Source of the DNA: a virus | IMG/VR virus record: IMGVR_UViG_3300042340_000084 | Span: 1-30,825 of that record | Strand: one strand, 5' to 3' | Length of the DNA: 30,825 nt | Shown: in pieces, positions 2,217-30,825 of the stretch | Numbering within the stretch: position 1 is the stretch's first letter | Layout: every line of letters begins with the position of its first letter | Made by a program: the position numbers and the translations under genes | Notes under the pieces: model-generated | What the model was told of the DNA's origin: nothing | Database searches by the model: none | What the model saw: only the letters and a program-made list of their open reading frames with translations

Positions 2217-3485
2217 TTAGCGGTTGTAATTCTCATAGGCGGCGATACGCTCGCCGATCCATGCCATGCAGTTGCAGGCCATCGAGTTCCCGAGTGCCTT
2301 GTACCGGGGGCCGTCCGGGCATTGCTCGGCAGGCTTGCCACGGTACGGGATCATCGTCCAGTCATCCGGGAAACCTTGAAGTCTCTCGCACTCTCGAGGC
2401 GTGAGACGGCGGACAGTCATCGACTGCGCCACCGCGATAGTCGCATCGCCACGGCTGCTGCCTGTCCCCATGCAATGGGTCGATCCGTCCGTGCTGCTGA
2501 TGGGATCCTGCGTCGGGTGGAACGCCACCGCCACCGTAGTCGCCCGCGTATCACCCTGATCAAACAGCGACAGCGTCGGGTTCACCTGGCCGTCCACCCA
2601 TGTCTCATCGTCGCTAGTTGACTGGGCGCGCTTCGCCTTCGTGAACGGGACGGGCTGCGCCACCGGGATGTACGCACCGTGCCCATCTAGCTCGGTGTGC
2701 GACCGCAAACCGCGATTGCCAAGCGTTCCGGCGGTCGGCTGCAAGACCGCAAACATCCTTTCCTTGTCAGGCATCCGATCATCGCAGCCCTTGCGAGTCA
2801 GGGTTGCTGCGACCTGTTCTCCGTTCCAGTAGCAACCGCCTCGAGCGCCGCCTTCAGCATCGGCGGCAAAGCCTTTCCCCTTCGCTCGGCGCGAGCGCAG
2901 ATACCCCTGCAAGCCCTCGGCGAGAGCGAGTACTTCTCCGGGAGCGGCCCAGTCTCGAGCACCTCGCTCAATGAGGCGACCAACGACGAAGACCCTGCGG
3001 CGACGTTGCGGGACGGCTCTGGGCCATCCCCCCACTCGCAGGTACTGAGCGTCAAGCACCCGATAGGCCCACCCATACCCGAGTTGCCCCAACGCGCCGA
3101 GGAAGGTGCCAAAATCCCGTCCTCCGTTGCTCGACAGAACACCGGGGACATTTTCCCACACGAGCCATTTCGGGCGCAGTCGATCAGCGATCGCCAGGTA
3201 GGTGAGCATGAGATTGCCTCGTGGGTCGGCGAGTCCTTGCCGTAACCCCGCGACTGAATATGACTGGCATGGCGTTCCGCCCACGAGAAGGTCGATTGAT
3301 CCGGGTCGAAGTGGCCATTGCTCATGCTGCGTCATGTCTCCGTAGTTGGGGATGTTTGGGAATCGGTGCGCTAGCACCGCCGCCGGGAAGGGTTCGATCT
3401 CCGAGAAGCCTACGGGTTGCCACCCGAGGTGATGCCACGCAACGCTCGCCGCCTCGATTCCGCTGCACACGCTCAAGTACCGCAT
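2217..3485 (-). CDS. DNA (cytosine-5) methyltransferase
   Basis: This 422-residue enzyme methylates C5 of cytosine in DNA using S-adenosylmethionine. The motifs are in order: SAM-binding SVCSGIEAASVAW (5-17), catalytic GGTPCQS with Cys73, ENVPG (111-115), PQRRRRVF (159-166), a long variable target-recognition region (about 180-365), then RRLTPRECERLQGFPDDW and the final KALGNSMACNCMAW helix. It looks intact and active. The start at 3485 overlaps the lysozyme gene end by 13 bases and has a weak ribosome site. No restriction nuclease neighbours it, so its likely role is protecting phage DNA from host restriction. Confidence 0.93.
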   Translation of the reverse strand: MRYLSVCSGIEAASVAWHHLGWQPVGFSEIEPFPAAVLAHRFPNIPNYGDMTQHEQWPLRPGSIDLLVGGTPCQSYSVAGLRQGLADPRGNLMLTYLAIADRLRPKWLVWENVPGVLSSNGGRDFGTFLGALGQLGYGWAYRVLDAQYLRVGGWPRAVPQRRRRVFVVGRLIERGARDWAAPGEVLALAEGLQGYLRSRRAKGKGFAADAEGGARGGCYWNGEQVAATLTRKGCDDRMPDKERMFAVLQPTAGTLGNRGLRSHTELDGHGAYIPVAQPVPFTKAKRAQSTSDDETWVDGQVNPTLSLFDQGDTRATTVAVAFHPTQDPISSTDGSTHCMGTGSSRGDATIAVAQSMTVRRLTPRECERLQGFPDDWTMIPYRGKPAEQCPDGPRYKALGNSMACNCMAWIGERIAAYENYNR

Positions 3486-11585: not shown

Positions 11586-12020
11586 TCACCCAGTCCAGGT
11601 GAGCGCGCCCTTGATGCGGATCGTCAGGTCGGCGGTCACGGCCGCGTCGATGCCGGCCGAGACATTGAGCGAAGTCACGAAGCCGTCGAACTTCATCTCG
11701 CTCCCGGTCGAGGTCGAGCCGCCGAAGGTGATCTTGAAGTTGCGATAGGTTCCGTTCACGAAGCCGGCAGGCTTCAGGTAGCCGAGGAGCGTATTGTCGC
11801 TCGGCGGGAGGAAGATCGACAGAGAGACCGTGCCGTTGTCCACTTGGCCGATGACGGCCTTGCGTGCGCTGTCGGTGAGCGCGGTCGTGTCGATCGTCGC
11901 TCCGGTGATGCCGGAGAGTGAGATGTCGGTGACCTCGATCACGCTCGCGTAGGTTGCCGGCGAGGAGGTGTTCGTGGTCGTGCCGACTTCTACCGTGGTT
12001 CCGTTTGCGACATATGCCAT
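11586..12020 (-). CDS. Major tail tube protein, paralogue A
   Basis: The 144-residue beta-rich protein has the tail-tube pattern: VIEVTDISLSGITGATIDTT (27-46), TDSARKAV, DNGTVSLSIFLPP, then FKITFGGS and EMKFDGFVTSL, ending TIRIKGALTWTG. It shares order and key residues with paralogue B immediately upstream: IDxx..DSAxK, xxGTVSLxxF.P, xIxFG, FDxxxxS and a TWxx end. Tail-tube rings stack on the tape measure. It has its own GGAG ribosome site eight bases before the ATG and ends just before the chaperone gene. Confidence 0.85.
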   Translation of the reverse strand: MAYVANGTTVEVGTTTNTSSPATYASVIEVTDISLSGITGATIDTTALTDSARKAVIGQVDNGTVSLSIFLPPSDNTLLGYLKPAGFVNGTYRNFKITFGGSTSTGSEMKFDGFVTSLNVSAGIDAAVTADLTIRIKGALTWTG

Positions 12021-12021
12021 G

Positions 12022-12423
12022 TCAGTTGCTCCAGGTGATCGTGCTCGTGAGCTTGAGAGTGACGGTCGAGCGGACTCCCGTATCCATCGCGGCGGCGATC
12101 GCGTGCGAGACGATCAGCGCGTCGAAGGTGGCGGTGATGTACGCGCCCGACGGGTTGCCGAAGTTGATCACACACGACGAGGCGGTCGTGGTTCCCGCAG
12201 TCGGTACGAGTGCCGCGATTCCGCCGGAGTAGTTCGCAGGCGTGAAGACCTCAAGCGAAACCGTGCCGCCGTCCTCGATGCCAGTCGTGAAGGACTTGGT
12301 CGCTGAATCGATAGTGCTCACATCGATCTCGGCGACGCTTGAGCCGCCGACGGAGAGCGAGATGATCTCGGAGACGCTGCTACCGCCGATCGTGAGAGTT
12401 GAGCCGTAGGAAGAAAGTGCCAT
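12022..12423 (-). CDS. Major tail tube protein, paralogue B
   Basis: The 133-residue protein aligns along its length with paralogue A: VSEIISLSVGGSSVAEIDVS against VIEVTDISLSGITGATIDTT, EDGGTVSLEVFTP against DNGTVSLSIFLPP, and the STITWSN end against GALTWTG. It contains more Ala/Gly/Ser and has a shorter N-terminus. A GAGG ribosome site precedes the ATG at 12423, and one base separates its stop from the A start. It may be a second tube subunit, an initiator or terminator ring, or a diverged duplicate. Confidence 0.8.
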   Translation of the reverse strand: MALSSYGSTLTIGGSSVSEIISLSVGGSSVAEIDVSTIDSATKSFTTGIEDGGTVSLEVFTPANYSGGIAALVPTAGTTTASSCVINFGNPSGAYITATFDALIVSHAIAAAMDTGVRSTVTLKLTSTITWSN

Positions 12424-13446: not shown

Positions 13447-13781
13447 GTCGCCTCCTGCACGGTCAAGGTAATCGTCTGCTGCCGATCGTCCACGCGCAGC
13501 ACCGAGATGATCTCAAGCGTCATAGCGTCGCCCACGAGCCGATTAGACGGCGTGAGCCATTGCTCATCCTGCGCTCGGCACATGATCGTGAACGATCGCT
13601 CGTGCGTCATGCCGCGCTTCTCCATCGTCTCGCCTGCGCTCTGGCCTTGGATGTAGCCCCACACGATCTGCCCGGCCGTCAGATACGAGAGCGTCTTCGA
13701 GTTGAACTCGTCCGAGGTGGTCGCAGTCCGGATATAGACCGTGAACGGTGTCCGCATCAGGCCCGAGCGGACGCGCCTCAT
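13443..13781 (-). CDS. Head-tail adaptor / head closure protein
   Basis: The 112-residue protein is a small beta-barrel type: MRTPFTVYIRTATTSDEFN, GQIVWGYIQGQSAGETMEKR, RSFTIMCRAQDEQW, and VLRVDDRQQTITLTVQEA. This pattern, with the EWQxxxxxxWGxIxP-like centre and THxxxxR segment, matches the SPP1 gp16-type head closure family. It follows the connector gene and precedes the gp10-like gene in the standard head-tail order. The ATG at 13781 overlaps the connector stop as ATGA. Confidence 0.8.
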   Translation of the reverse strand: MRRVRSGLMRTPFTVYIRTATTSDEFNSKTLSYLTAGQIVWGYIQGQSAGETMEKRGMTHERSFTIMCRAQDEQWLTPSNRLVGDAMTLEIISVLRVDDRQQTITLTVQEAT

Positions 13782-14398
13782 GCGAACCTCGGGATCGAGT
13801 AGAGGCGAGCGAGCGACTCGACACCGTGCGGAACCTCGGCGAGGTTGACCTCGCTCCCGGTCTCCTTCGCGATGTCGTACCAGTAGGCCACGGCCATGAG
13901 CACGGCCTGCCGAAGTGCCTGCGGGACATTCGCCGCCGCCGCGCCGTAGCCGGCCGTATAGCCGATCGTCACGCTTGAGATGCTCGCGTAGTACCGCGTG
14001 CTCGGCCACGCCGAGATCGTGCTCGGGTTGATGACGATCGAGCCTGGGAGCCTCTGGCCTTCGAGCGTGTACGCGCTTGCGCTCAAGGTCTGCGTCGAGC
14101 CATCCGTGTCCACATAGGTGATCGAGGACACCGCCGAGACCTTGCCGGCCGGGAGGATGATCTCATAGCCGCCGGGGAAGCGATCGAGCTTCAGAGTATA
14201 GGTGCGATTCACGAGCGGCCGATTCGCCAGTCCCTCGACATAGTTGCGAGCCGCCACGATGAGCGAGGTGATCAGCGTATCCTCGTCCGTGTGCGTGACG
14301 CGCATATGCGCCTTCGCCTCGGCAATCGTGACAGGCTCGACCGCCGGCGAGGTGGCCTCGACATTCGAGAGGTAGGTCGCACCGTCAATCGCCAGCAT
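13778..14398 (-). CDS. Head-tail connector protein (gp6-like)
   Basis: The 206-residue protein opens its domain with EPVTIAEAKAHMRVTHTDED and TLITSLIVAARNYVEGLANRPLVNRTYTLKLDRFP, the hallmark of the phage connector family that forms a ring below the portal. The middle is beta-rich, and the C-terminal helix QALRQAVLMAVAYWYDIAKE is also typical. The ATG at 14398 has a GGAGG site seven bases upstream and overlaps the small upstream gene by 14 bases. Confidence 0.88.
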   Translation of the reverse strand: MLAIDGATYLSNVEATSPAVEPVTIAEAKAHMRVTHTDEDTLITSLIVAARNYVEGLANRPLVNRTYTLKLDRFPGGYEIILPAGKVSAVSSITYVDTDGSTQTLSASAYTLEGQRLPGSIVINPSTISAWPSTRYYASISSVTIGYTAGYGAAAANVPQALRQAVLMAVAYWYDIAKETGSEVNLAEVPHGVESLARLYSIPRFA

Positions 14399-14653: not shown

Positions 14654-15922
14654 TCAGGTGTTGTCATCCTTCAGAGCGCGGAACGCATCGGAGCGAACGA
14701 CCTTCGCGTCGAGGCGCATCTCGCCGAGGTAGCCGATCTGGCCGTTGCCGGCGTACAGTTCGTTCAGCACCTGCACGCTCATGCCCGTGCGCTGCGCGAC
14801 CACCATGTGCTGGAAGTCGCCGATCACCGCGTGGATCTGGTCGTTGACATTGCCGAGCGTGGGTGCCCACGGCGTGACATAGACCGGGATTCCGAGCAGA
14901 CGGTCGGGCGTGCCGGCCTGGAAGGAAGGCTCCCAGAGGTAGGCCACCGAGGCAGCACCAGAGGTCGTGGTCGTGATCTTCTCTGTCAACTTGCGGACGG
15001 CCGTCAGGAACGACTGGCTCGTGACGATCGCGCACGACGGGCTCTTCAGATACTTCATCGGCAGGCTGTAGACCCAGTCGATGAGTTCGTCGGCGGTGAG
15101 CGTGCCGTCGGTCGCGAGCGTGGTAGCGGTGCCGAGCGTGGCGCTCTTCAGACCTTGCGGCTTGTTGGTGCCGTTCCCGTGCCACAACTGGTACTCGATC
15201 GACTGGCCGAAGAGGCGACCCATGCGCTGCGCGACCATGCTCTCGACGCTGAAGTCAGCACCGCGAGCAGGAGCGTCCTGCACGAGTTCGCGCGAGACCT
15301 TGACCACGCGGCGCAGCGAGTTGCCCGTGAAGGTCGTGTTGGTGAAGTTCGGCGTGTACTCATCGACCGAACCCGCTTCGCCGGCCCAACCTTCGGTGTC
15401 CAGTTCGCTCGAGGCGAAGTCGCCCTCGAGCGTGAAGTTGGTCGTGAAGTTGCCGACATCGATCTTGCGGCAGAGGTTGTAGATCGCGGTCTCGAGTTCC
15501 ACGCTCTTCTGCAACTGCGCGTAGAAGCCGGCCGACGGGAGGTACTGGCCGTCGCCCGAGCCTGCGGCGATCGCGCGAGTGTCGAAGTCGCGGCGGTGGC
15601 CGTTCTTCAGGTAATCGGCGAACCGAGCCTCGTACTGCTCGCCGATCTGCGGAGCGAACGAGCGAGTCTCGACGCGGGCCGGAGCCTCACGCTCGACCAC
15701 GACCACGCCGTGCGAGCTCTTGGCGGCGCGCGAGTTCAGGTCGGCGATCATGTCGCGACGCTTGGCGAGAGCGTCGTACTGCTTGCTCTTCTCCTCGTAC
15801 TTGGCCGACATCTTGGCCGCGTCCTCTTCGGTCGCGCCCTCCATGCCTGCCACCATCTCCTGCATCTCCGCGTAGAGGGCACCCATCTTCTCGACGAGTG
15901 CCTTGTAGGTATCACCTTCCAT
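14654..15922 (-). CDS. Major capsid protein, HK97 fold, full-length form (MCP2)
   Basis: The 422-residue protein has an N-terminal coiled-coil delta/scaffold domain (about 1-75: MGALYAEMQEMVAGMEG, KYEEKSKQYDALAKRRDMIAD), a linker where the prohead protease would cut, and the HK97-fold body from about residue 88 (QIGEQYEARFADYLKNG). Body features include SVELETAIYNLCRKIDVG, SRELVQDAPARGADFSVESM, GNGTNKPQGL and the late VQVLNELYAGNGQIGYLGEMRLDAKV. A strong AAAGGAGG ribosome site precedes the ATG, fitting high expression. A second HK97-fold protein lies immediately upstream. Confidence 0.92.
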   Translation of the reverse strand: MEGDTYKALVEKMGALYAEMQEMVAGMEGATEEDAAKMSAKYEEKSKQYDALAKRRDMIADLNSRAAKSSHGVVVVEREAPARVETRSFAPQIGEQYEARFADYLKNGHRRDFDTRAIAAGSGDGQYLPSAGFYAQLQKSVELETAIYNLCRKIDVGNFTTNFTLEGDFASSELDTEGWAGEAGSVDEYTPNFTNTTFTGNSLRRVVKVSRELVQDAPARGADFSVESMVAQRMGRLFGQSIEYQLWHGNGTNKPQGLKSATLGTATTLATDGTLTADELIDWVYSLPMKYLKSPSCAIVTSQSFLTAVRKLTEKITTTTSGAASVAYLWEPSFQAGTPDRLLGIPVYVTPWAPTLGNVNDQIHAVIGDFQHMVVAQRTGMSVQVLNELYAGNGQIGYLGEMRLDAKVVRSDAFRALKDDNT

Positions 15923-15948
15923 GTGTTGCCTCCTTTAGGCGTTGGTGA

Positions 15949-16998
15949 TTAGTTGCTCACGACCTGGATCAGCGACCGAGGGTCGATGATGTTTCCGCCC
16001 ACGCGGACGGAGGCTCGTAGCACGACTTGTCCGGTGGCCGCAGCCACCTCGTTCAGACGCTCGACCTGCACACCGTCGCGGTGCATGGCGAGCACATATG
16101 AGTCGAAGTTCACGAGGAAGCAGAGGACGTCGCCTGCGGTGCTGTGCGTGAAGTGCGGCGTGTAGATCGCATGGCGACCGAGGATCTTGGCGAATGCCTC
16201 GGGCGTGCTCTCGTCGGGAGCGTGCACCGCTGCGCTGTTCGCGCTCTGGTGCAGGAAGTCTGCGATCGACTCGTCACCCATCACCCAGACAGCCGATGGG
16301 AAACTCGACGCTCGAATCTTCTCGACACAACGAGCGAGCGACGAGTAGTTGATGTGATCGACCGCGCTCGATCCGCCATCGATGACGATCTGTGAAGTGT
16401 TCTGCGCGTAGTAGTAGATGCCTTGGCACTCGCGACGATTAGCGACTGTCGAAGTAGCAGGGCGACCGACGATGATCTGCCTCTCGATCTCGCTCGTGAG
16501 CTTCTTCGAGAGAAGGTCGGCGAGCATCGCTTCGACCGATGCGCTTCCCATCGATTCCTCGATGAGTTCCTTCGAGACCGTGACATTCACGCCGACCTCG
16601 TGCAGCGTGATCTTCGCGTTCTCGTAGTTGTAGGAGTAGCCGGCCGGAGCAGTACCAGAGACCGTGAAGCGAGGCAGAGCGAACGCCGCGCTAGCAAGAT
16701 CAGCGCGCGTGCCTTCCTCCTTGTAGGTGATCCGGTTCGTGGTCTCGTTCGATTCGGTGTATCCAGTCACCGACAGCGTCGGCCCGTTCACCGTCACCTT
16801 GCGGCATCGCTTGATGATGTAGTTGGTGTCGAAGCCATCGCCGATGATCTCGCTCCAGTTGTCCGGAGCGATGTTCGAGGCCGAGTCAGTCACGCCGCGC
16901 TTCTCCGCGAGGATCTGCGCGTCCTCGCTGCTGATGCCGTGAGCACCTCGCAGGAGGTAGCGGTAGAAGGCTTGCCGATGGGCCGACTTGAAGTCCAT
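15949..16998 (-). CDS. Second HK97-fold capsid protein (MCP1), lacks a delta domain
   Basis: The 349-residue protein starts at the capsid body: FKSAHRQAFYRYLLRGAHG (3-21) with an ISSEDAQILAEKRG segment, both usual just after the HK97 delta domain. It continues with HEVGVNVTVSKELIEESMGS, a SVEAMLADLLSKKLTSEIER helix and a C-terminal VERLNEVAAATGQVVLRASVRVGG, matching the order in MCP2. No scaffold-like coiled coil precedes it. The ATG at 16998 is preferred (GAGGAT seven bases upstream); a TTG at 17034 would add twelve residues. It lies between protease and MCP2 and may form vertices or co-assemble with MCP2. Confidence 0.85.
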   Translation of the reverse strand: MDFKSAHRQAFYRYLLRGAHGISSEDAQILAEKRGVTDSASNIAPDNWSEIIGDGFDTNYIIKRCRKVTVNGPTLSVTGYTESNETTNRITYKEEGTRADLASAAFALPRFTVSGTAPAGYSYNYENAKITLHEVGVNVTVSKELIEESMGSASVEAMLADLLSKKLTSEIERQIIVGRPATSTVANRRECQGIYYYAQNTSQIVIDGGSSAVDHINYSSLARCVEKIRASSFPSAVWVMGDESIADFLHQSANSAAVHAPDESTPEAFAKILGRHAIYTPHFTHSTAGDVLCFLVNFDSYVLAMHRDGVQVERLNEVAAATGQVVLRASVRVGGNIIDPRSLIQVVSN

Positions 16999-17030
16999 GT
17001 CCTTATCCTCGCATCTTTGAGTGTCGAAGG

Positions 17031-17918
17031 TCAACGCTTGGGGCCAAGCCAGATACGCCGACGAACCATCGCCGGCACGGGCGCGCTCGCCGTCCAGAGG
17101 TCGAACGAGCGGCGATCGACCACGAGGTCGGTAGCCGGGTTCGCCGGGAAGGTCACGGCCGAGACCTCGTGGAGTTCGAGATCCTCGATCATCCGGTGCA
17201 CCTTGCCGTCCCGCTCCTCGAAGCGATCCGAGCGCACGATGAAGCCGAAGGACATCGCCGAGACCACGCCCGAGCGCACCGCGACGCGAGCGTCCCGGCC
17301 GACCTGGGTGTCGATCGGCTCCATCTCGACCACGAGGCCGTGCTCATCCTCGGCGAGCCGGAGGCTCCCGGCCGTCGTGCGAGCGATCGGCATCGATGCG
17401 TCGTGGTTCCAGAGGGCGACCACATCCGGCTTCTCCCGGAGCGTCCGCTCGAACGCGCCGCGCACGATGATCTCGTGGGCGTATCCGATCGGATACGGGG
17501 TCTCGGTCACGCTCGCGTAGCCGCGGAGGATCTCCCGGCCATCGTCTGCACGCACTTCCATCGCCTGCCCGTAGCGTCGCTCCATGATGTCGCCTCCTGC
17601 GCGGTCTACGCGCTCCAGAATGTTTCGAGCAAAGGCCCATCCGGGATCTCCGCCCCAGAGTGCCCACGCGATCCGGCCGGCCGATGGGAAGCCCTCTTCA
17701 CCCGGCCCCCACCCTTGGCCCTGCTTGTCCACCTCGTGTCGCGCGAAGTACGAGGCCATGCGCTGCACCGTGTCGATCGAGAGCGCGCGACCGTTCGCGA
17801 TGTCACGCGCTCGGGCGACCCCGACCTCCGTCCCGCCCCGCCCGTGCTCGCGCCGCCACGCGAGGCCACGGTCGGCCTCCTCGCGCATCGAGGCGTTAGG
17901 CTCGAAGGAGTCAGCCAC
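17031..17918 (-). CDS. Prohead protease with N-terminal extra domain
   Basis: The 295-residue protein has two parts. Residues 1-105 are a phage domain of unknown function with the motif VGVARARDIANGRALSIDTV and KQGQGWGPGEEGFPSAGRIA. Residues 112-295 are an HK97-type serine protease that matures the capsid: RGYASVTETPYPIG, candidate catalytic His172 in ALWNHDASMP and Ser223 in SAMSFGFIV, then LHEVSAVTFPANP. A ribosome site (AGGAGG) lies eight bases before the in-frame ATG at 17585, so a separate 184-residue protease, the usual family length, could also be made. The start at 17918 overlaps the portal gene by eight bases. Confidence 0.88.
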   Translation of the reverse strand: MADSFEPNASMREEADRGLAWRREHGRGGTEVGVARARDIANGRALSIDTVQRMASYFARHEVDKQGQGWGPGEEGFPSAGRIAWALWGGDPGWAFARNILERVDRAGGDIMERRYGQAMEVRADDGREILRGYASVTETPYPIGYAHEIIVRGAFERTLREKPDVVALWNHDASMPIARTTAGSLRLAEDEHGLVVEMEPIDTQVGRDARVAVRSGVVSAMSFGFIVRSDRFEERDGKVHRMIEDLELHEVSAVTFPANPATDLVVDRRSFDLWTASAPVPAMVRRRIWLGPKR

Positions 17919-19389
17919 CCTCGGCCTCCGTGCACATCGAGATCGCGATCGCGACCGCCTGATCCTGATCGTATCCCTCGTCGAGGAGCCGACCGATCTT
18001 GCCGCTCACGCACTCCTGAACCTCGGGCGAAAGGTCGGCAAGCCGCTTTGACTTGCGCTTCGCGTAGCGGCCCCTCGAGTCCCGAGCGGTCGGAGCCGTA
18101 GCCGGCACGGGAGCCGGGGCCGTGAGCGGCGACTGGTCGCCCGACTTGCCGGCGTTCGGATCGACGATCGCCAGGTTCACGGGCGCGCGAGCCGCATCGC
18201 CGCCGTCGATCGGCGCGTAGTTCTCACGCTCGCGCACCTCATTGATAGTTAGGAAGCCATTGTTGAGCGCGGTCGAGTACGCCGCGAATCGCGACGCTAG
18301 GTCGCCTCGGAGGAGCGCGTCGAACGAGATGTGCGTCTCGATCGGCTCGCCTTCGCGCACGAGCTTGCGCGCGCACTCCTCCTCAAAACGCGAGGCCCAG
18401 TTCGCAAGGCAATGCTTCACGAACTCGGCATCGGCCTGCTCGGCACTCGCGTACGAGGTCTTCGTCGCGTCGCCGACCATGTGCACCGGGACGTTGAACG
18501 CGGCCGCGATCTGCGATCGACAGAACGAGCGCAACTCGACGAGTTTCGCTTCCTCGGGATCGACCGAGACCTTCTCCCACGAGTAGCCGCTTTCCAGGAT
18601 CGCCACGCGGCCGGCGTTCTCCGCCCCGCCCGTGATCGACTGCCACGACTGGCGGAGCCGCTTGAGTGCTTCCTCGGTGAGCGTGCCCGTCACCTTGATG
18701 AGGCCCGCCGGCCGTGCGCCGTTTCGGAAGAACGAGGCGACGAACTTCTCCGCCTCGAGTTCCACGCCGATGATGTTCCGCACGAGGTAGATCGGAGTCT
18801 CGCCGAGGAGACCGTCGAGGCTCGGCGCGCGGAGGTGGAAGATGTCGTACGCCTGCCACACCTGATCGGTGCTCTTCGCGATGCCCCACCGAGACGATGT
18901 GTACGAGTAGACGGGCATCCCGTCCGGGCCGCGCGAGACCTCGACCGAGTCCGCGCGCAACTTGTGCAGGCCGACCACGCGGCCGACAGCATCGCGCTCG
19001 ATCACGGCATAGGCGTTCCCGTAAAGGAGGCAGTCGAGGAGCATCGACTCGCGCCAGACCATCGCACCCATGTACGGGTTCGGCTCGATGTTCAGGAGCC
19101 GATAGAGCGGATGCTCGCGAGCGGGAACCGGGATCCCTCCCTCCCGGCGCATGACTCGCCACTCCATCCGCGCCACGCTCTGGGAGATGAGCCGCGTGCA
19201 GGCGTAGACCGTCGGAGCCTCCCTCGCGGCCTCCGGCGTGATCGAGCGGCCCGTGTCGGCGTAGGTCGAGATGTACGCCTGCGCCCCGCCCGGAGGCTGT
19301 CCGATCGGCGAGCGGTCGATCACCGCGCGCTCTTCGAGCGTCGGCTCGGGAGTCGGGGCGGGTCGGCGGAACCAGTCGATCAGAGCCAT
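17911..19389 (-). CDS. Portal protein, HK97 family
   Basis: The 492-residue protein forms the dodecameric DNA channel at one capsid vertex. Family signs include SITPEAAREAPTVYACTRLI near residue 50, LLDCLLYGNAYAVIERD, GLLGETPIYLVRNIIGVELE, FFRNGARPAGLI, LVELRSFCRSQIAAAFNVP and FLTINEVRERENYAPIDGGD. The C-terminal part is Pro/Ala-rich and then carries the helical segment LSPEVQECVSGKIGRLLDEG. The ATG at 19389 has a GAGAGG site and overlaps the large terminase stop by ten bases. Confidence 0.94.
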   Translation of the reverse strand: MALIDWFRRPAPTPEPTLEERAVIDRSPIGQPPGGAQAYISTYADTGRSITPEAAREAPTVYACTRLISQSVARMEWRVMRREGGIPVPAREHPLYRLLNIEPNPYMGAMVWRESMLLDCLLYGNAYAVIERDAVGRVVGLHKLRADSVEVSRGPDGMPVYSYTSSRWGIAKSTDQVWQAYDIFHLRAPSLDGLLGETPIYLVRNIIGVELEAEKFVASFFRNGARPAGLIKVTGTLTEEALKRLRQSWQSITGGAENAGRVAILESGYSWEKVSVDPEEAKLVELRSFCRSQIAAAFNVPVHMVGDATKTSYASAEQADAEFVKHCLANWASRFEEECARKLVREGEPIETHISFDALLRGDLASRFAAYSTALNNGFLTINEVRERENYAPIDGGDAARAPVNLAIVDPNAGKSGDQSPLTAPAPVPATAPTARDSRGRYAKRKSKRLADLSPEVQECVSGKIGRLLDEGYDQDQAVAIAISMCTEAEGG

Positions 19390-21044
19390 AGGATTCCTCT
19401 CTCGGCGTACGGTGTCGCTTGTGATACCGTCGGCGCGGCATCGAGTGCTACCGCGAGTGCCACGATTCCCGCGACCACGGGGTCGATCTTCTCCGTCGAG
19501 CGTCGCTTGCTCGGTCGCGGGTTCGAGTTCGCGTCGAGTTCCACGACGCAGTTGGACATTGCCCAAGTGAGAACCGGGTTGCCGTCGTGCCGGAGCCGAT
19601 GGTTCGTCACCATCGCCTCCCATCGCTTCGTCGGCTCGGCCATGTAGTAGTACGACTGGGGCACGCGCTTGAGCCGCAGGCCGTCGGCCTCGAGTTGCTG
19701 CGCGAGGCCGCTCGCGTTGTACGGGTCGTACCCGACCGCCTGCACCTTGTGCTCGCCGACGATCCGCAGGATCTCCCGCCGCACGAACTCGTAGTCGGTC
19801 GCGTCGCCCGGTGTAAGCCTCATATGCCCCTGCCGGCTCCAGTCGAGGTAGGGCACCTTGTCCCGCTTCTGCCGACGCTGCGCGCCTTCCTCGGGCGCGA
19901 AGGCCCACGAGCGCACCCACGCCTCGTCCTTGTCGAGCCATACGGCCGTGAGCGCGGTGAGGTCGCTCGTCTCGCCCAAGTCGATCCCGAGGTAGCACGG
20001 GAGGCCGGCGAGCCGGGACTCGTCGAATTCCAGTCGGCACTTGTCCCAATCCGCCATGCGGAGCCATCGGTTCGAGGCGGAGACGTGCTGGCAGAGGTAG
20101 TAGGTTCGGAACGGGGTCTCCATCGAGGGTTGCTCCTGCGCCTCCTTGCACTTCTCGGCGTAGTACCCCTCGTGCACCGTGTGCCCGAGACTCGGCGCGC
20201 ACTTGCGCCAGGTCTCTGGACTCGTCCAATCGTCTCCATCGCTCGCCGAGTAGACCACGGGCAAGAAGTACGGGTTGTCGATCACGCGGTCGCGCACCTT
20301 GCACGCATAGTCGTACATCTCGAACTCAAGACTCTCGCGGAGCGTGCCGGCGGTCGTGATCGTCACGAGCATCGGTTGCCGACGCGCGCCGACGCTCGTC
20401 TCGATCGCCTCCCACAGCTCGCGCCGATTCTCCATCGCGTGCACCTCGTCCGCGATGCACGCGCTCGTATTCAGGCCGTGCGCGCTCGGAGCCTCGCTCG
20501 ACATCACCTTGTAAACGCCGGCCGTGCTCGGCACGATCACTCGGTGCTGATAGACCTCGGTGCGGCTCTCGAGCATCGGCTCGGCGCGCACCATGCGCTT
20601 CGCCGCCTCGAGGCATCGGCCCGCCTGCGCGCGGTCGGCCGCGATCGAGATCACCTCGGGCGTAGGCTCATCGTCGGCGAGAAGGTGATACAGCGCGAGG
20701 GCCGCTCCGAGTTCGGTCTTGCCACACTTGCGCGGGACAAGGATGTGCACGCGACGATACCGCCTCGTGCCGTCCGGGCGGATCCATCCGTAAGCGTTGG
20801 CGATGAGTGCCTTCTGCCACGGGAGCAGCGTGAACGGTAGGCCGGCCCAAGTGCTCGTGGTGAGTTTGCACGCGGTCTCGATGAACCGGATCACATGGAG
20901 CGCGGCCTGCTCGTCGAATGTGCAGTTGCCTGCGGTCGCGATCGCGTCATAGCCGGGGATCGTGTTCCACTTCGCGGCCGGGTGCTCGGCCGACTTCTTC
21001 GGCTTACGCGCGACGCTTGGTAAAGATGTCTTCTTGCGGGGCAT
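19380..21044 (-). CDS. Terminase large subunit
   Basis: The 554-residue packaging motor has an N-terminal ATPase: Walker A PRKCGKTE (104-111) and Walker B ACIADE (195-200), with a coupling TITTAGT segment near 228-234. The C-terminal RNase H-like nuclease shows YLGIDLGETSDLTALTAVW (351-369) with metal-binding Asp355 and Asp361, and a final EKIDPVVAGIVALAVAL segment. It is the YmfN/HK97-like type that pairs with P27 small subunits. The ATG at 21044 follows an AAGGAGC site and overlaps terS by 41 bases. Confidence 0.95.
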   Translation of the reverse strand: MPRKKTSLPSVARKPKKSAEHPAAKWNTIPGYDAIATAGNCTFDEQAALHVIRFIETACKLTTSTWAGLPFTLLPWQKALIANAYGWIRPDGTRRYRRVHILVPRKCGKTELGAALALYHLLADDEPTPEVISIAADRAQAGRCLEAAKRMVRAEPMLESRTEVYQHRVIVPSTAGVYKVMSSEAPSAHGLNTSACIADEVHAMENRRELWEAIETSVGARRQPMLVTITTAGTLRESLEFEMYDYACKVRDRVIDNPYFLPVVYSASDGDDWTSPETWRKCAPSLGHTVHEGYYAEKCKEAQEQPSMETPFRTYYLCQHVSASNRWLRMADWDKCRLEFDESRLAGLPCYLGIDLGETSDLTALTAVWLDKDEAWVRSWAFAPEEGAQRRQKRDKVPYLDWSRQGHMRLTPGDATDYEFVRREILRIVGEHKVQAVGYDPYNASGLAQQLEADGLRLKRVPQSYYYMAEPTKRWEAMVTNHRLRHDGNPVLTWAMSNCVVELDANSNPRPSKRRSTEKIDPVVAGIVALAVALDAAPTVSQATPYAERGILWL

Positions 21045-21486
21045 CCTTCGCTTGCTCCTTCGCCGCGCCGATTCGGGCACGACCGACTGGGGTGAGTCCG
21101 AACTCGCTCATCATGCGCCGGAGTCGATCACCATGCTCGGCGAGCACCGCACTCCACGGGTTTCGCTTCACGGTCACGCGGTCGCCTCCCTCGACTCGGA
21201 TCACCTCGCCCTCCTCGGCGAGTCGCTTGCGAGCCTCCAGGTAGCGCGACCATGTGTCGCACATCAGAGCGAGCGCGTCGCGGTCTCCGCTCGAGATGAT
21301 CTTCATCGCGGCCACGCGCGGAAGCCAGTCGGCCCACGCAGCACGACCGACCTCATCGAGCCAGTCGGGGCATTCGGGTAGCACCTCGTCGGCCGGCGGC
21401 TCGGACTTGGCTCGACCGGACGCGCGCCAGTTGCCGGACAACTTCAAAGCCGCCGAAGGTTTAGGGGCAGGGCCGCGTAGTCCCAT
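21004..21486 (-). CDS. Terminase small subunit, P27 family
   Basis: The 160-residue protein starts with the P27 signature MGLRGPAPKPSAALKLSGN, then ECPDWLDEVGRAAWADWLPRV and SGDRDALALMCDTWSRYLEA, and ends with a NPWSAVLAEHGDRLRRMMSEF helix followed by FGLTPVGRARI. It recognises phage DNA at the packaging site and recruits the large subunit. The ATG at 21486 is preferred over the adjacent GTG; GGGAGG lies eight bases upstream. The 193-base gap before it holds the phased repeats, the likely recognition site. Confidence 0.93.
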   Translation of the reverse strand: MGLRGPAPKPSAALKLSGNWRASGRAKSEPPADEVLPECPDWLDEVGRAAWADWLPRVAAMKIISSGDRDALALMCDTWSRYLEARKRLAEEGEVIRVEGGDRVTVKRNPWSAVLAEHGDRLRRMMSEFGLTPVGRARIGAAKEQAKDAPQEDIFTKRRA

Positions 21487-27200: not shown

Positions 27201-27992
27201 TTACTCCGTGCAATCGCATGGGATTGTGTGATCGTCCAGATCGTCGAACAATGTCCCCTGCACGCTGATCTGAACTAACAACTGCGAGTAAGTCGGCCGA
27301 TCCTTCCGAAACCTGGCTCCGATTGCAGTCTCTTGATCTATCCACCATTGAGCCAGACTCGGATCGTGCCTAATCACTCGCTCGATTCGAGATGCACCCT
27401 TGAGGAAGCACAAGTCGCAGTTTCCGAAGGCGGGATCATCGTTCGGCAGCGACAAGTCGAATGGATTTGATCGCCACCAGTCAATCACCTGTTCGCGTGT
27501 CACGCCGGCATCAGCCATAGGCATTGCGATATCTCGTGTCTCATCGGCGCGAAGACGCGACACTCGCTTCGGCTCATCGGCACGAAGTCCGATGATCGTG
27601 GTGAACTCCTCGTATCTATCCGACATGAATCGATTCATCGGCTTGACCTTCAAGTCGCTAGTACAGAATCTCGCAACCGGGTTGGGTAGATACTTTCGCT
27701 TCGCTATCAAAGCTGCAAACGGAGTCCCCCTGCGATCGCCATTCTGCGGCGTAACAGTTCGATAGCCAGAATCTGCCCACTCGATCCATGTGATCGGACA
27801 CCATTCGCGCTCAACGCGCTCAATGAACTCATAGGTTGCAGGGTGTTCGCGACCAGTATTCGCGAACAGCACATGACCTCCTTTCGGAAGCGATCCGCCC
27901 CATGAGTCCAAAACATGACGAAGTAGGTAGCCGCTCGTGCGGCCGCCGCTGAAAGACACATAAAACGGAGGATCAATCTTGTATGGGTTCAT
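27201..27992 (-). CDS. PAPS-reductase / ATP-pyrophosphatase family protein
   Basis: The 263-residue protein has the PP-loop YVSFSGGRTSGYLL (11-24) and HVLFANTGREHPATYEF, standard for PAPS-reductase-like enzymes that activate a substrate with ATP. Other signs are RFCTSDLKVKPMN (108-120), GLRADEPKRVSRL, and GNCDLCFLKG with C192/C195, perhaps with C259/C261 forming a metal or Fe-S site. Relatives include DndC-type DNA sulfur-modification enzymes and many phage proteins of unknown role. The ATG at 27992 overlaps the ParB-like stop as ATGA. The gene is visibly less GC-rich than its neighbours, which suggests recent acquisition. Confidence 0.85.
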   Translation of the reverse strand: MNPYKIDPPFYVSFSGGRTSGYLLRHVLDSWGGSLPKGGHVLFANTGREHPATYEFIERVEREWCPITWIEWADSGYRTVTPQNGDRRGTPFAALIAKRKYLPNPVARFCTSDLKVKPMNRFMSDRYEEFTTIIGLRADEPKRVSRLRADETRDIAMPMADAGVTREQVIDWWRSNPFDLSLPNDDPAFGNCDLCFLKGASRIERVIRHDPSLAQWWIDQETAIGARFRKDRPTYSQLLVQISVQGTLFDDLDDHTIPCDCTE

Positions 27993-28855
27993 CCGTTGAT
28001 TCCCCGCAGCACCTGGGCGCGCATCTTGGAGATCCATCCGAGGTTGCCGCACGCGGGACATCCGCCGCCCTTGCACTTGGGGCACGGCCCCGCCGGCCGA
28101 GCGCGGTCGATCGAGAGCCGGAGGTCTCGCCAGTATTGATCCATCGTGCCGATGTGGATCCCGGATCCCGCCTCCTCGGCGGCGATGCGGTCGGCCTCGG
28201 CACGCCACCGCTCCAGTCCCTTGAGCAGCACCCCGATGCGGGCGCGTGCGTGCGCGATGCGCTCGTCGAGCGTGACGGGTGCCCCTACGGGAGCCTCGGA
28301 GTCGGAAGGCTCCAGATCGTCTCCTAGTGGCTCAATATCGGCGACCTCGTCGGCGTGGAAATCCTCCTCGACCCCGTAAGAGTGGCAACCGTTGCCACTC
28401 TTCTCGGCTTCAATAGGTTTCCCGCTCGCCGCATCGTCGATCGAGCGGCGCATCTTGGCGACCATCGTGTGACTCACGCCGACATGGGCGGCGACCTCGC
28501 GGTCGCTCGATCCGGGTCGCAGCATGAGCGCGGCCTCGACCGCCAGACGCTTGGACTCGTTCGAGCGGCGCAGGCCGTGCGTGGAGTTCGCCGCGCAGGC
28601 GATCCATTGCGCCTCCTCGATCGTGCCCGAGCCGATCACCGTCGCGAGGATGTCACGAGCCTCCGCGCGAGAGTGCGCGTAGTAGCGATGGAATCCATCG
28701 ACGAGCACGAACCGACGGCCGACCGCGTACACGGCCACCGCCGGCAACTGGTCGAGTACCTCGGCGTACTCCGCGACCACGGACTCATCGATCCGCTCGC
28801 GCATCTGCGTCCCTGCGTCCAACACAATCTTCGATAGTTCGATTCGATCCGGCAT
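27989..28855 (-). CDS. ParB-like DNA-binding protein with C-terminal zinc ribbon
   Basis: The 288-residue protein has a ParB/sulfiredoxin N-terminal domain (about 6-95) with LVDGFHRYYAHSRAEARD (51-68), the conserved ParB box. A helix-turn-helix follows (SSDREVAAHVGVSHTMVAKM, 116-135). Next come a linker, an acidic stretch (DIEPLGDDLEPSDSEAP) and a C-terminal zinc ribbon, CPKC (C258/C261) and CPAC (C266/C269). The linker codons at residues 152-159 carry a perfect palindrome identical in core to the site at 4729. No ParA partner is present, so it may act as a regulator or origin-binding factor. The AAGGAGA ribosome site fits the ATG at 28855. Confidence 0.87.
   Translation of the reverse strand: MPDRIELSKIVLDAGTQMRERIDESVVAEYAEVLDQLPAVAVYAVGRRFVLVDGFHRYYAHSRAEARDILATVIGSGTIEEAQWIACAANSTHGLRRSNESKRLAVEAALMLRPGSSDREVAAHVGVSHTMVAKMRRSIDDAASGKPIEAEKSGNGCHSYGVEEDFHADEVADIEPLGDDLEPSDSEAPVGAPVTLDERIAHARARIGVLLKGLERWRAEADRIAAEEAGSGIHIGTMDQYWRDLRLSIDRARPAGPCPKCKGGGCPACGNLGWISKMRAQVLRGING
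28378..28402. promoter_or_regulatory. 25-bp palindrome inside the ParB-like gene (core shared with 4729-4745)
   Basis: The 17-bp core GTGGCAACCGTTGCCAC (28382-28398) is identical to the copy at 4729-4745. Here symmetry extends four bases further on each side, giving 25 bases around a single central base. It encodes only linker residues (KSGNGCHS), so the DNA may be conserved for binding rather than protein. ParB systems often keep their centromere-like site within or beside parB. Confidence 0.7.
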
Positions 28856-29373: not shown

Positions 29374-29997
29374 TCACGCGCTCGTCGTGAGCGCGGCGGC
29401 GATGCGTGCCGCTGCTGCTGCGGGCCACGATACAGGATCCTCCCCGAGCGTCAAGCCGTCGGCGGCAAGTCTCTCGCGGAGTTGCGCGATCGTCACGCCG
29501 GCCTTGGTCGCCTGCGCGCGGAGCCGACCTGCTCGCGCGATGCCGAGCACCTCTGGATCGTGCGCCCGATCGTCGCGCTTGTCCATCTCCTCGTCATCTC
29601 GAGGCACGAGCAGGAGATCGCGGAGCCAGTACCCGAGCGACGAGGTGAGCGCGCCGGCGAGAGCCTTGTCGAGCGGCCTGCCCTTCTCCTCGGCGAACGG
29701 CCACTTCGTCGCCATCGGGTAGTGCTCGACCTCCCCGGACTCGTGGGCAAGCTCGTACGAGCACACGAGCCAAGTGTGCGTCTCGCTCGACTCCGTGCTC
29801 CACCTTGTGCGCCGCGCCGAGAGTCCGTTGGCGTGGAGTGCCTGCCGGCACGCCGACATCATGTCCTCGGCCGAGGCGTAGCGGTAGCGATGGAAGGCGT
29901 TCTCGCTGCCCTTGTGCACGGCCTTCAGGTCTCTCTGGGCGGTGATCAGCGCGCGGCGCAGGCCGACGGGCGCGTCGGTCTTCGTTGGCTTGGTCAC
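29374..29997 (-). CDS. erf: ERF-family single-strand annealing protein
   Basis: The 207-residue recombinase anneals complementary ssDNA exposed by the exonuclease. It has the ERF core: LRRALITAQRDLKAVHKGSE (13-32), NAFHRYRYASAEDMMSACRQ (33-52, the conserved F-x-Y-x-Y-A segment), LHANGLS, and KALAGALTSSLGYWLRDLLL. The C-terminal 70 residues are charged and variable, as usual. The GTG at 29997 overlaps the exonuclease stop as GTGA, so the two partner enzymes are translated together. A longer in-frame reading upstream is a shadow of the exonuclease gene. Confidence 0.9.
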   Translation of the reverse strand: MTKPTKTDAPVGLRRALITAQRDLKAVHKGSENAFHRYRYASAEDMMSACRQALHANGLSARRTRWSTESSETHTWLVCSYELAHESGEVEHYPMATKWPFAEEKGRPLDKALAGALTSSLGYWLRDLLLVPRDDEEMDKRDDRAHDPEVLGIARAGRLRAQATKAGVTIAQLRERLAADGLTLGEDPVSWPAAAAARIAAALTTSA

Positions 29998-30825
29998 GCG
30001 CGGCCCCCTTCCGGTCGAGCGTCGAGCACCCGGAAGGTCGTGCGCGTCGCGTACCGCTCGGCGAGTTCCGGGTTGTCGGCGAGCAGTCGCTTGGTGTCCA
30101 CGCCCGACCGCGACCGCTCGCGGTAGGAGACGCGCCACCCGCCGCCGGCCCCGATCTCGGCCTGCCCCAGAGCGGTGAGGAGCATCGCCTTCGCATTGTC
30201 GAGCGCGCGATCCGCCGCCGTCGCCGACTCGCGCGCCACGATGTACGCCTCCATGATCTCGCTCGGGATGTGCGTCGCCGCGCCCGACTGCCGGGTAATG
30301 CGCGCCGCCGTGTCGAGCGTGAACGCGCCCTCGGGTTGCGTGTCGCCGACGATGTGCTTCTCCCACCACTCGGCCGCTCTGGCCTCGATCTCGTGGCAGT
30401 AGCCCTCGTCGCGCGGAACCTCGTACAGCGAGAACGAGAGATGGCTCCCGTCCAGCACGGCCACATAGGCGCGTTGCGACTCGGCGCAAAGCATCTGATG
30501 CTGAACCTGGAGCATGACGGCCTCGGGCACGGCCGAGGATCCGGGCGCGCCGTAGCCGACGGGCGATCCGTGGCACTTCGCCTCGACGATGTCCGAGCCG
30601 CGCTCGAAGCGATCGAGCATCCCGTCAACATTCGCGCGCAGCACGCCGCGCACGAAGGTGCTCGACGGGGCCACGACCTTGCGGCCCAGTTGCTCGCTCG
30701 CCATCGCGAGGAGCGCAGGCTCCACGACGCTGCCGATCTTCGCGGCCTCGCTCGGGTATCCCGACTCAAGCTCCACGCGACCAGTCTTCTCGGCCCACAC
30801 ATCGACGGCCGACTTCCAACGCGAC
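29994..30825 (-). CDS. YqaJ-family viral recombinase (exonuclease), C-terminal part; N-terminus at 1-321
   Basis: This copy covers residues 26-301 and runs open to the window end, because the ATG lies in the other terminal copy (position 321). It includes all nuclease motifs: GSVVEP, the NVDG aspartate, VEAKCHG (E106/K108) and VMLQVQHQM (about 127-135), with a late helical domain. It differs from the left copy by one residue (Ser for Ala in LESGYPSE), plus synonymous changes. Its TGA overlaps the ERF GTG. Exonuclease plus annealing protein is the classic phage recombination pair. Confidence 0.93.
   Translation of the reverse strand, partial: SRWKSAVDVWAEKTGRVELESGYPSEAAKIGSVVEPALLAMASEQLGRKVVAPSSTFVRGVLRANVDGMLDRFERGSDIVEAKCHGSPVGYGAPGSSAVPEAVMLQVQHQMLCAESQRAYVAVLDGSHLSFSLYEVPRDEGYCHEIEARAAEWWEKHIVGDTQPEGAFTLDTAARITRQSGAATHIPSEIMEAYIVARESATAADRALDNAKAMLLTALGQAEIGAGGGWRVSYRERSRSGVDTKRLLADNPELAERYATRTTFRVLDARPEGGRA
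30579..30825. repeat. Terminal redundancy, right copy
   Basis: This 247-base stretch repeats positions 1-247 with six mismatches, all inside the exonuclease gene. Joining 30578 to 1 keeps the reading frame intact, so the genome closes as a circle of 30,578 bp. Confidence 0.95.

Follow-up and report, generated by a model that had tools for sequence, protein, structure and literature searches.

Head genes and the tandem capsid pair

The stretch of DNA analyzed here (the window), a 30,825-base virus record, has all of its head genes on the minus strand. In the direction of that strand, genes for the terminase small and large subunits (the latter at 19380-21080; PF20441/PF03354) are followed by those for the portal protein (17911-19389; PF04860, 2e-100), a prohead protease (17031-17918), MCP1 (15949-16998; 349 aa) and MCP2 (14654-15922; 422 aa), and then by a small gene, a head-tail connector (13778-14398; Ad1-like, PF05135 and phrog_442) and the tail genes. 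The protease is of the S78/HK97 type (PF04586, 3e-39; TIGR01543) and has an extra N-terminal region; the first ~110 residues (17587-17918, minus strand), ahead of the S78 domain, match phrog_2859, a family of unknown function. Elsewhere on the minus strand, the window encodes a C5 cytosine methylase (2217-3485), a PAPS-reductase-like protein (27201-28208) and an ERF recombinase (29374-30576).

An earlier note, made from the sequence alone, had described two tandem HK97-type capsid genes at 14654-16998, only one of them with a scaffold (delta) domain, and each with its own ribosome site. All three statements were borne out, the coordinates exactly. MCP1 and MCP2 matched PF05065 (Phage_capsid) at 6e-21 (75 bits) and 6e-41 (141 bits), respectively, above a cutoff of 24 bits, and the entire record contained no third PF05065 gene. 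In Pfam, PHROGs and NCBIfam, neither protein matched the T4 gp23/gp24 families; the matches were to HK97-type families only. The NCBIfam model for HK97 major capsid proteins, TIGR01554, aligned with MCP2 from model position 10 (1e-59) and with MCP1 only from position 86 (1e-17), indicating that the delta region is present in MCP2 and absent from MCP1. Joint alignment placed residue 10 of MCP1 opposite residue 100 of MCP2; the start of MCP1 therefore corresponds to the start of mature MCP2, and MCP1 is without the ~95-residue delta/linker region. Identity between the two proteins was 22% over 215 aa (E=3e-5). The delta coiled-coil of MCP2 spans approximately residues 1 to 78 (15689-15922, minus strand), within which residues 6 to 69 were modeled as two helices (6-27 and 32-69). 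The variable linker that follows (approximately residues 79 to 95; 15638-15688, minus strand) is the likely region of cleavage by the protease.

We used structure prediction to check the fold of MCP1, as the earlier note had proposed. An AF2 monomer model, built from an alignment of 32 sequences, was of modest confidence (pLDDT 65, pTM 0.66), and its N-arm and E-loop were poorly resolved. With this model, Foldseek returned 350 PDB chains at E<=0.001, and the top 50 were all HK97-fold shells, the best matches being to RcGTA (2e-13), HK97 Prohead II (8e-10) and mature HK97 (1e-8); a direct sequence search of the PDB with MCP1 gave no match. The MCP2 sequence alone found the RcGTA capsid in the PDB (1e-9), so no fold search was required for it, and its monomer model (pLDDT 49; most reliable over the delta helices and a portion of the A domain) was dropped from fold searching as too low in quality. 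MCP1 and MCP2 are two intact HK97-type capsid genes, with delta in MCP2 alone. MCP2 combines a profile match above the cutoff with an N-terminal delta domain and an adjoining S78 protease; MCP1 combines a profile match above the cutoff with a predicted HK97 fold and lacks delta, which is common in the family models but not required by them.

The Shine-Dalgarno sequence of MCP1, GAGGA (17006-17010, minus strand), is located 7 nt before the start codon, and that of MCP2, AAAGGAGG (15929-15936, minus strand), is located 6 nt before. For the identical upstream regions in L003, duplex energies were -11.6 kcal/mol at the MCP2 site and -6.0 kcal/mol at the MCP1 site. A stronger MCP2 site was seen mainly in clade A, in most of its members, and outside that clade the two sites were similar; Shine-Dalgarno strength was therefore set aside as a general clue to stoichiometry, and the MCP1:MCP2 ratio is not settled by it. 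Codon usage in the window was better for MCP2 (0.734, the best among 16 genes tested) than for MCP1 (0.652), which fits with MCP2 outnumbering MCP1.

Relatives and history of the pair

Relatives keeping both genes, for which the earlier note had suggested a search, were gathered by five scans of viral contigs and by running MCP1 and MCP2 profiles over all open frames. MCP1 was directly followed by MCP2 in 96 distinct IMG/VR contigs, a conservation that excludes chance, and the protease was nearly always found upstream of MCP1 where the contig extends that far. The sole exceptions to the pairing were contigs cut at that point: 14 further contigs with MCP1 end within it or 0 to 426 nt past it, and six start inside MCP1 or just ahead of MCP2. 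When eight representative whole records were searched independently with Pfam, the number of PF05065 genes was exactly two in every case. Across clades, identity fell to 31 to 35% for MCP2 and to ~25% for MCP1. Delta was nonetheless absent from all 87 MCP1 proteins with a visible start, each of which begins a few to ~24 residues from a Y/F-L-x-x-G motif, and the adjoining MCP2 has delta except for copies cut by contig ends and one off-frame N terminus (L147:7099-8389). In that case, as in a frameshifted MCP1 (L017:1245-2290; 252 plus 115 aa), sequencing error and decay are indistinguishable.

Thirteen loci (L069-L071 from INPHARED and L132-L141 from IMG/VR) had one capsid gene only. Their proteins matched the MCP2 profile at 1e-59 to 1e-75, compared with 1e-7 to 1e-19 for the MCP1 profile, and three annotated INPHARED phages showed matching synteny around the single gene. 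In no INPHARED record did either MCP1 or MCP2 match at two separate places, a search that a divergent second copy could escape. The only match in a cellular genome (L020:3673-4107) was on a 4.1-kb contig in a Rhodobacteraceae MAG; too small to trust, it is at most a weak hint of the host or else a binning error.

In a maximum-likelihood tree of 33 MCP1/MCP2 pairs and 11 single capsids, every MCP1 fell in one clade (SH-aLRT 100) and every MCP2 in one group (78). The single-capsid phages branched beside MCP2, which makes MCP1 the extra paralogue. MCP1 is connected to the remainder of the tree by long branches, which leaves the date and donor of the split uncertain, but nothing in the tree pointed to repeated recent duplication. 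On this tree, the pair stems from one old divergence that predates several clades. Purifying selection acts on both genes in each of the three clades tested, in agreement with the earlier impression that neither is decayed: median dN/dS values within allotypes for MCP1 and MCP2 were 0.27 and 0.20 in clade A, 0.11 and 0.16 in clade B, and 0.16 and 0.23 in clade C. These values were recomputed within allotypes, the all-pairs value for clade A being inflated by deep allotypes.

Exchange of allotypes and predicted roles in the shell

Compared with the window, L005 was 97% identical in MCP1, 67% in MCP2 and 98% in the protease, and L024 was 44% identical in MCP1, 96% in MCP2 and 98% in the protease, showing that MCP1 and MCP2 have been exchanged separately. 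The difference between the window and L024 allotypes of MCP1 was concentrated in the A-domain region (approximately residues 181 to 299; 16102-16458, minus strand), which was 22% identical, compared with 70% in the spine block and 83% in the C-terminal P-domain block; MCP2 of the same two records was 96% identical overall and 94% identical in the A domain. Between MCP1 allotypes generally, identity was 18 to 25% in the A domain versus 62 to 83% in the P-domain blocks, with block limits that are approximate, set by the secondary structure of the model and by what is generally known of the HK97 fold. MCP2 allotypes kept a delta domain 92% identical and diverged from approximately codon 79 on, with 18% identity in the linker; comparison of the window (15638-15922, minus strand) with L005:4115-5380 suggests recombination where the delta region meets the mature domain.

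Within an HK97-fold capsomer, subunits meet through their A domains, while the P domain, E-loop and N-arm reach neighboring capsomers. Free change in the MCP1 A domain alongside a constant MCP2 therefore fits with homotypic MCP1 capsomers set in a constant MCP2 lattice. The sequence pattern of a divergent MCP1 A domain with a conserved MCP2 and a conserved MCP1 P domain thus favors separate capsomers, although fast A-domain divergence could equally come from outside selection on an exposed surface.

We hypothesize that MCP1 and MCP2 are specialized HK97-fold shell proteins of one capsid. The earlier note had raised a mixed shell, with MCP1 at the vertices or relying on MCP2 for scaffolding, and the comparative results support that idea in part: of the outcomes that would have spoken against it, a non-HK97 fold for MCP1 was not seen in prediction, and relatives keep both genes. 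That the two proteins assemble together we consider probable. Delta is missing from every MCP1 with a visible start and carried by MCP2, so MCP1 would have to enter a prohead scaffolded by MCP2. In the mechanism that we propose, delta-bearing MCP2 would form the hexamer lattice and supply the scaffold, MCP1, made without delta, would be recruited to the MCP2/scaffold prohead and form pentamers at the eleven nonportal vertices, as gp24 does in T4, and the neighboring protease would remove the scaffold supplied by MCP2. Placement of MCP1 at the vertices draws on the comparative pattern and on the T4 precedent, and we lean toward it only modestly; the AF2 models are of monomers and do not discriminate between 5-fold and 6-fold assembly. 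The overall reading, with MCP2 as scaffolded hexamers and MCP1 as delta-less vertex pentamers, is the best explanation of the data and, in our judgment, somewhat better than an even bet.

In T4, the vertex pentamers are formed by gp24, which shares ~20% identity with gp23 and has only 10 residues removed, and some of the mutations that let gp23 replace gp24 lie in an A-domain contact (PMC9958956, PMC3012670). The likeness to the pair described here extends to two HK97-fold paralogues of similarly low identity, to a protease-processed head (predicted here) and to a minor paralogue whose propeptide is short (10 residues in gp24) or missing (no delta in MCP1). MCP1 has the features of a gp24-type protein, namely, an HK97-fold paralogue about 20% identical to its partner (22% here) with a short or absent propeptide. 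T4 differs in having the gp23 family and a separate gp22 core, where the present phages have PF05065 proteins with delta inside MCP2; they also differ from T4 in their record size (25 to 32 kb), their tandem protease-MCP1-MCP2 order and their pentamers, which are predicted. Capsids of the HK97 gp5/TIGR01554 type, including that of RcGTA, share the fold, the portal-protease-capsid synteny and, with MCP2, the N-terminal delta, but those systems have a single capsid gene, and MCP1 here is an additional, delta-less paralogue.

Among other explanations, the one that survives best, although we regard it as unlikely, is that MCP1 and MCP2 mix within capsomers in variable composition, with MCP1 tuning stability or lowering the delta load of the prohead. 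Such mixing has a precedent in the two-component Family 2B encapsulin of Streptomyces lydicus, Sl-Enc1/Sl-Enc2, in which one of the HK97 proteins does not assemble by itself and the two mix irregularly into variable shells (PMC12407261). As with Enc1/Enc2, synteny and separate clades have been kept for the tandem pair here; the encapsulin, in contrast, is a cellular compartment with no protease or delta and with irregular tiling, not a phage head. Mixed capsomers should also couple both A domains, whereas the MCP1 A domain drops to ~20% identity while MCP2 stays 92 to 96% identical, and just 22% identity between the two proteins likewise argues against them.

HK97-fold proteins can be redirected to different shell sizes in satellite systems, and MCP1 could accordingly be an assembly factor, a size-switching subunit or the shell of a separate particle type rather than a standing part of the capsid. 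We consider this slightly less probable than mixing: in every lineage MCP1 immediately precedes MCP2, following the protease wherever contigs extend that far, its loss was never seen, and it has kept the HK97 fold, P domain included. Less probable again is a reversal of roles, in which the hexamers are made of MCP1, and MCP2 builds only the pentamers or a ring that nucleates assembly at the portal. Delta would then be required solely at nucleation points, and no result here fixes the position of either protein, but in profiles and tree MCP2 groups with the sole shell protein of single-capsid phages, and its codon usage is the better of the two. That MCP1 is a functionless recent duplicate or recombination relic, as the disrupted frames in L017 and L147 might suggest if they are not sequencing errors, is very improbable given a single origin older than several clades, purifying selection in three of three clades and 96 contigs with both genes.

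Implications and accessory features

T4 has been described as the single virus known to have two HK97-fold proteins in separate roles (Dutcher et al. 2025; PMC12407261). Our literature search, whose coverage stopped short of subscription papers and bioRxiv, found no report of a PF05065 phage with HK97-type capsid genes in tandem, which suggests that a two-protein shell in this group is apparently undescribed, with T4 as the known precedent. Sequence comparison suggests a two-protein shell, as in T4, built from a pair kept in nearly a hundred environmental phages. More tentatively, and with the odds somewhat against so broad a claim, these small tailed phages may represent a large undescribed lineage with a delta-less HK97-fold vertex protein that arose independently of T4 and is exchanged as a module between lineages while the hexamer protein stays fixed. 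If our reading is correct, the pair would be a second case of role division between HK97-fold proteins, found in small PF05065 phages and represented by many natural variants. It would offer a route to how pentamer and hexamer roles divide after duplication, why one partner needs a delta scaffold and which shell surfaces must match between partners; the natural allotype swaps (MCP1 44%/MCP2 96% and MCP1 97%/MCP2 67%) would be ready tests of the important interfaces.

In clade C, MCP1 (L062:4629-5876, L064:4712-5959 and L066:4714-5961) has an insertion of ~75 residues at the E-loop, a Gly/Thr/Ala-rich repeat with the motif GGSGYTSAPTV. The insertion is absent from MCP2, and its confinement to MCP1 is a hint of a separate surface role. 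Clades B and C also encode, between MCP2 and the head-tail connector, a protein of 400 to 440 aa that starts near FMLRRGDGSTLSLDF (L066:7526-8857, L064:7472-8722 and L045:1892-3106) and is possibly a head decoration or fiber. Farther downstream, the window has two tandem lambda-like tail tube genes (12022-12423 and 11586-12020, minus strand; 27% identical, E=5e-12). Clade A has two to three copies of this gene and the other dual-capsid clades have one; since the extra copies are confined to clade A, the tail tube duplication is later than the capsid duplication.
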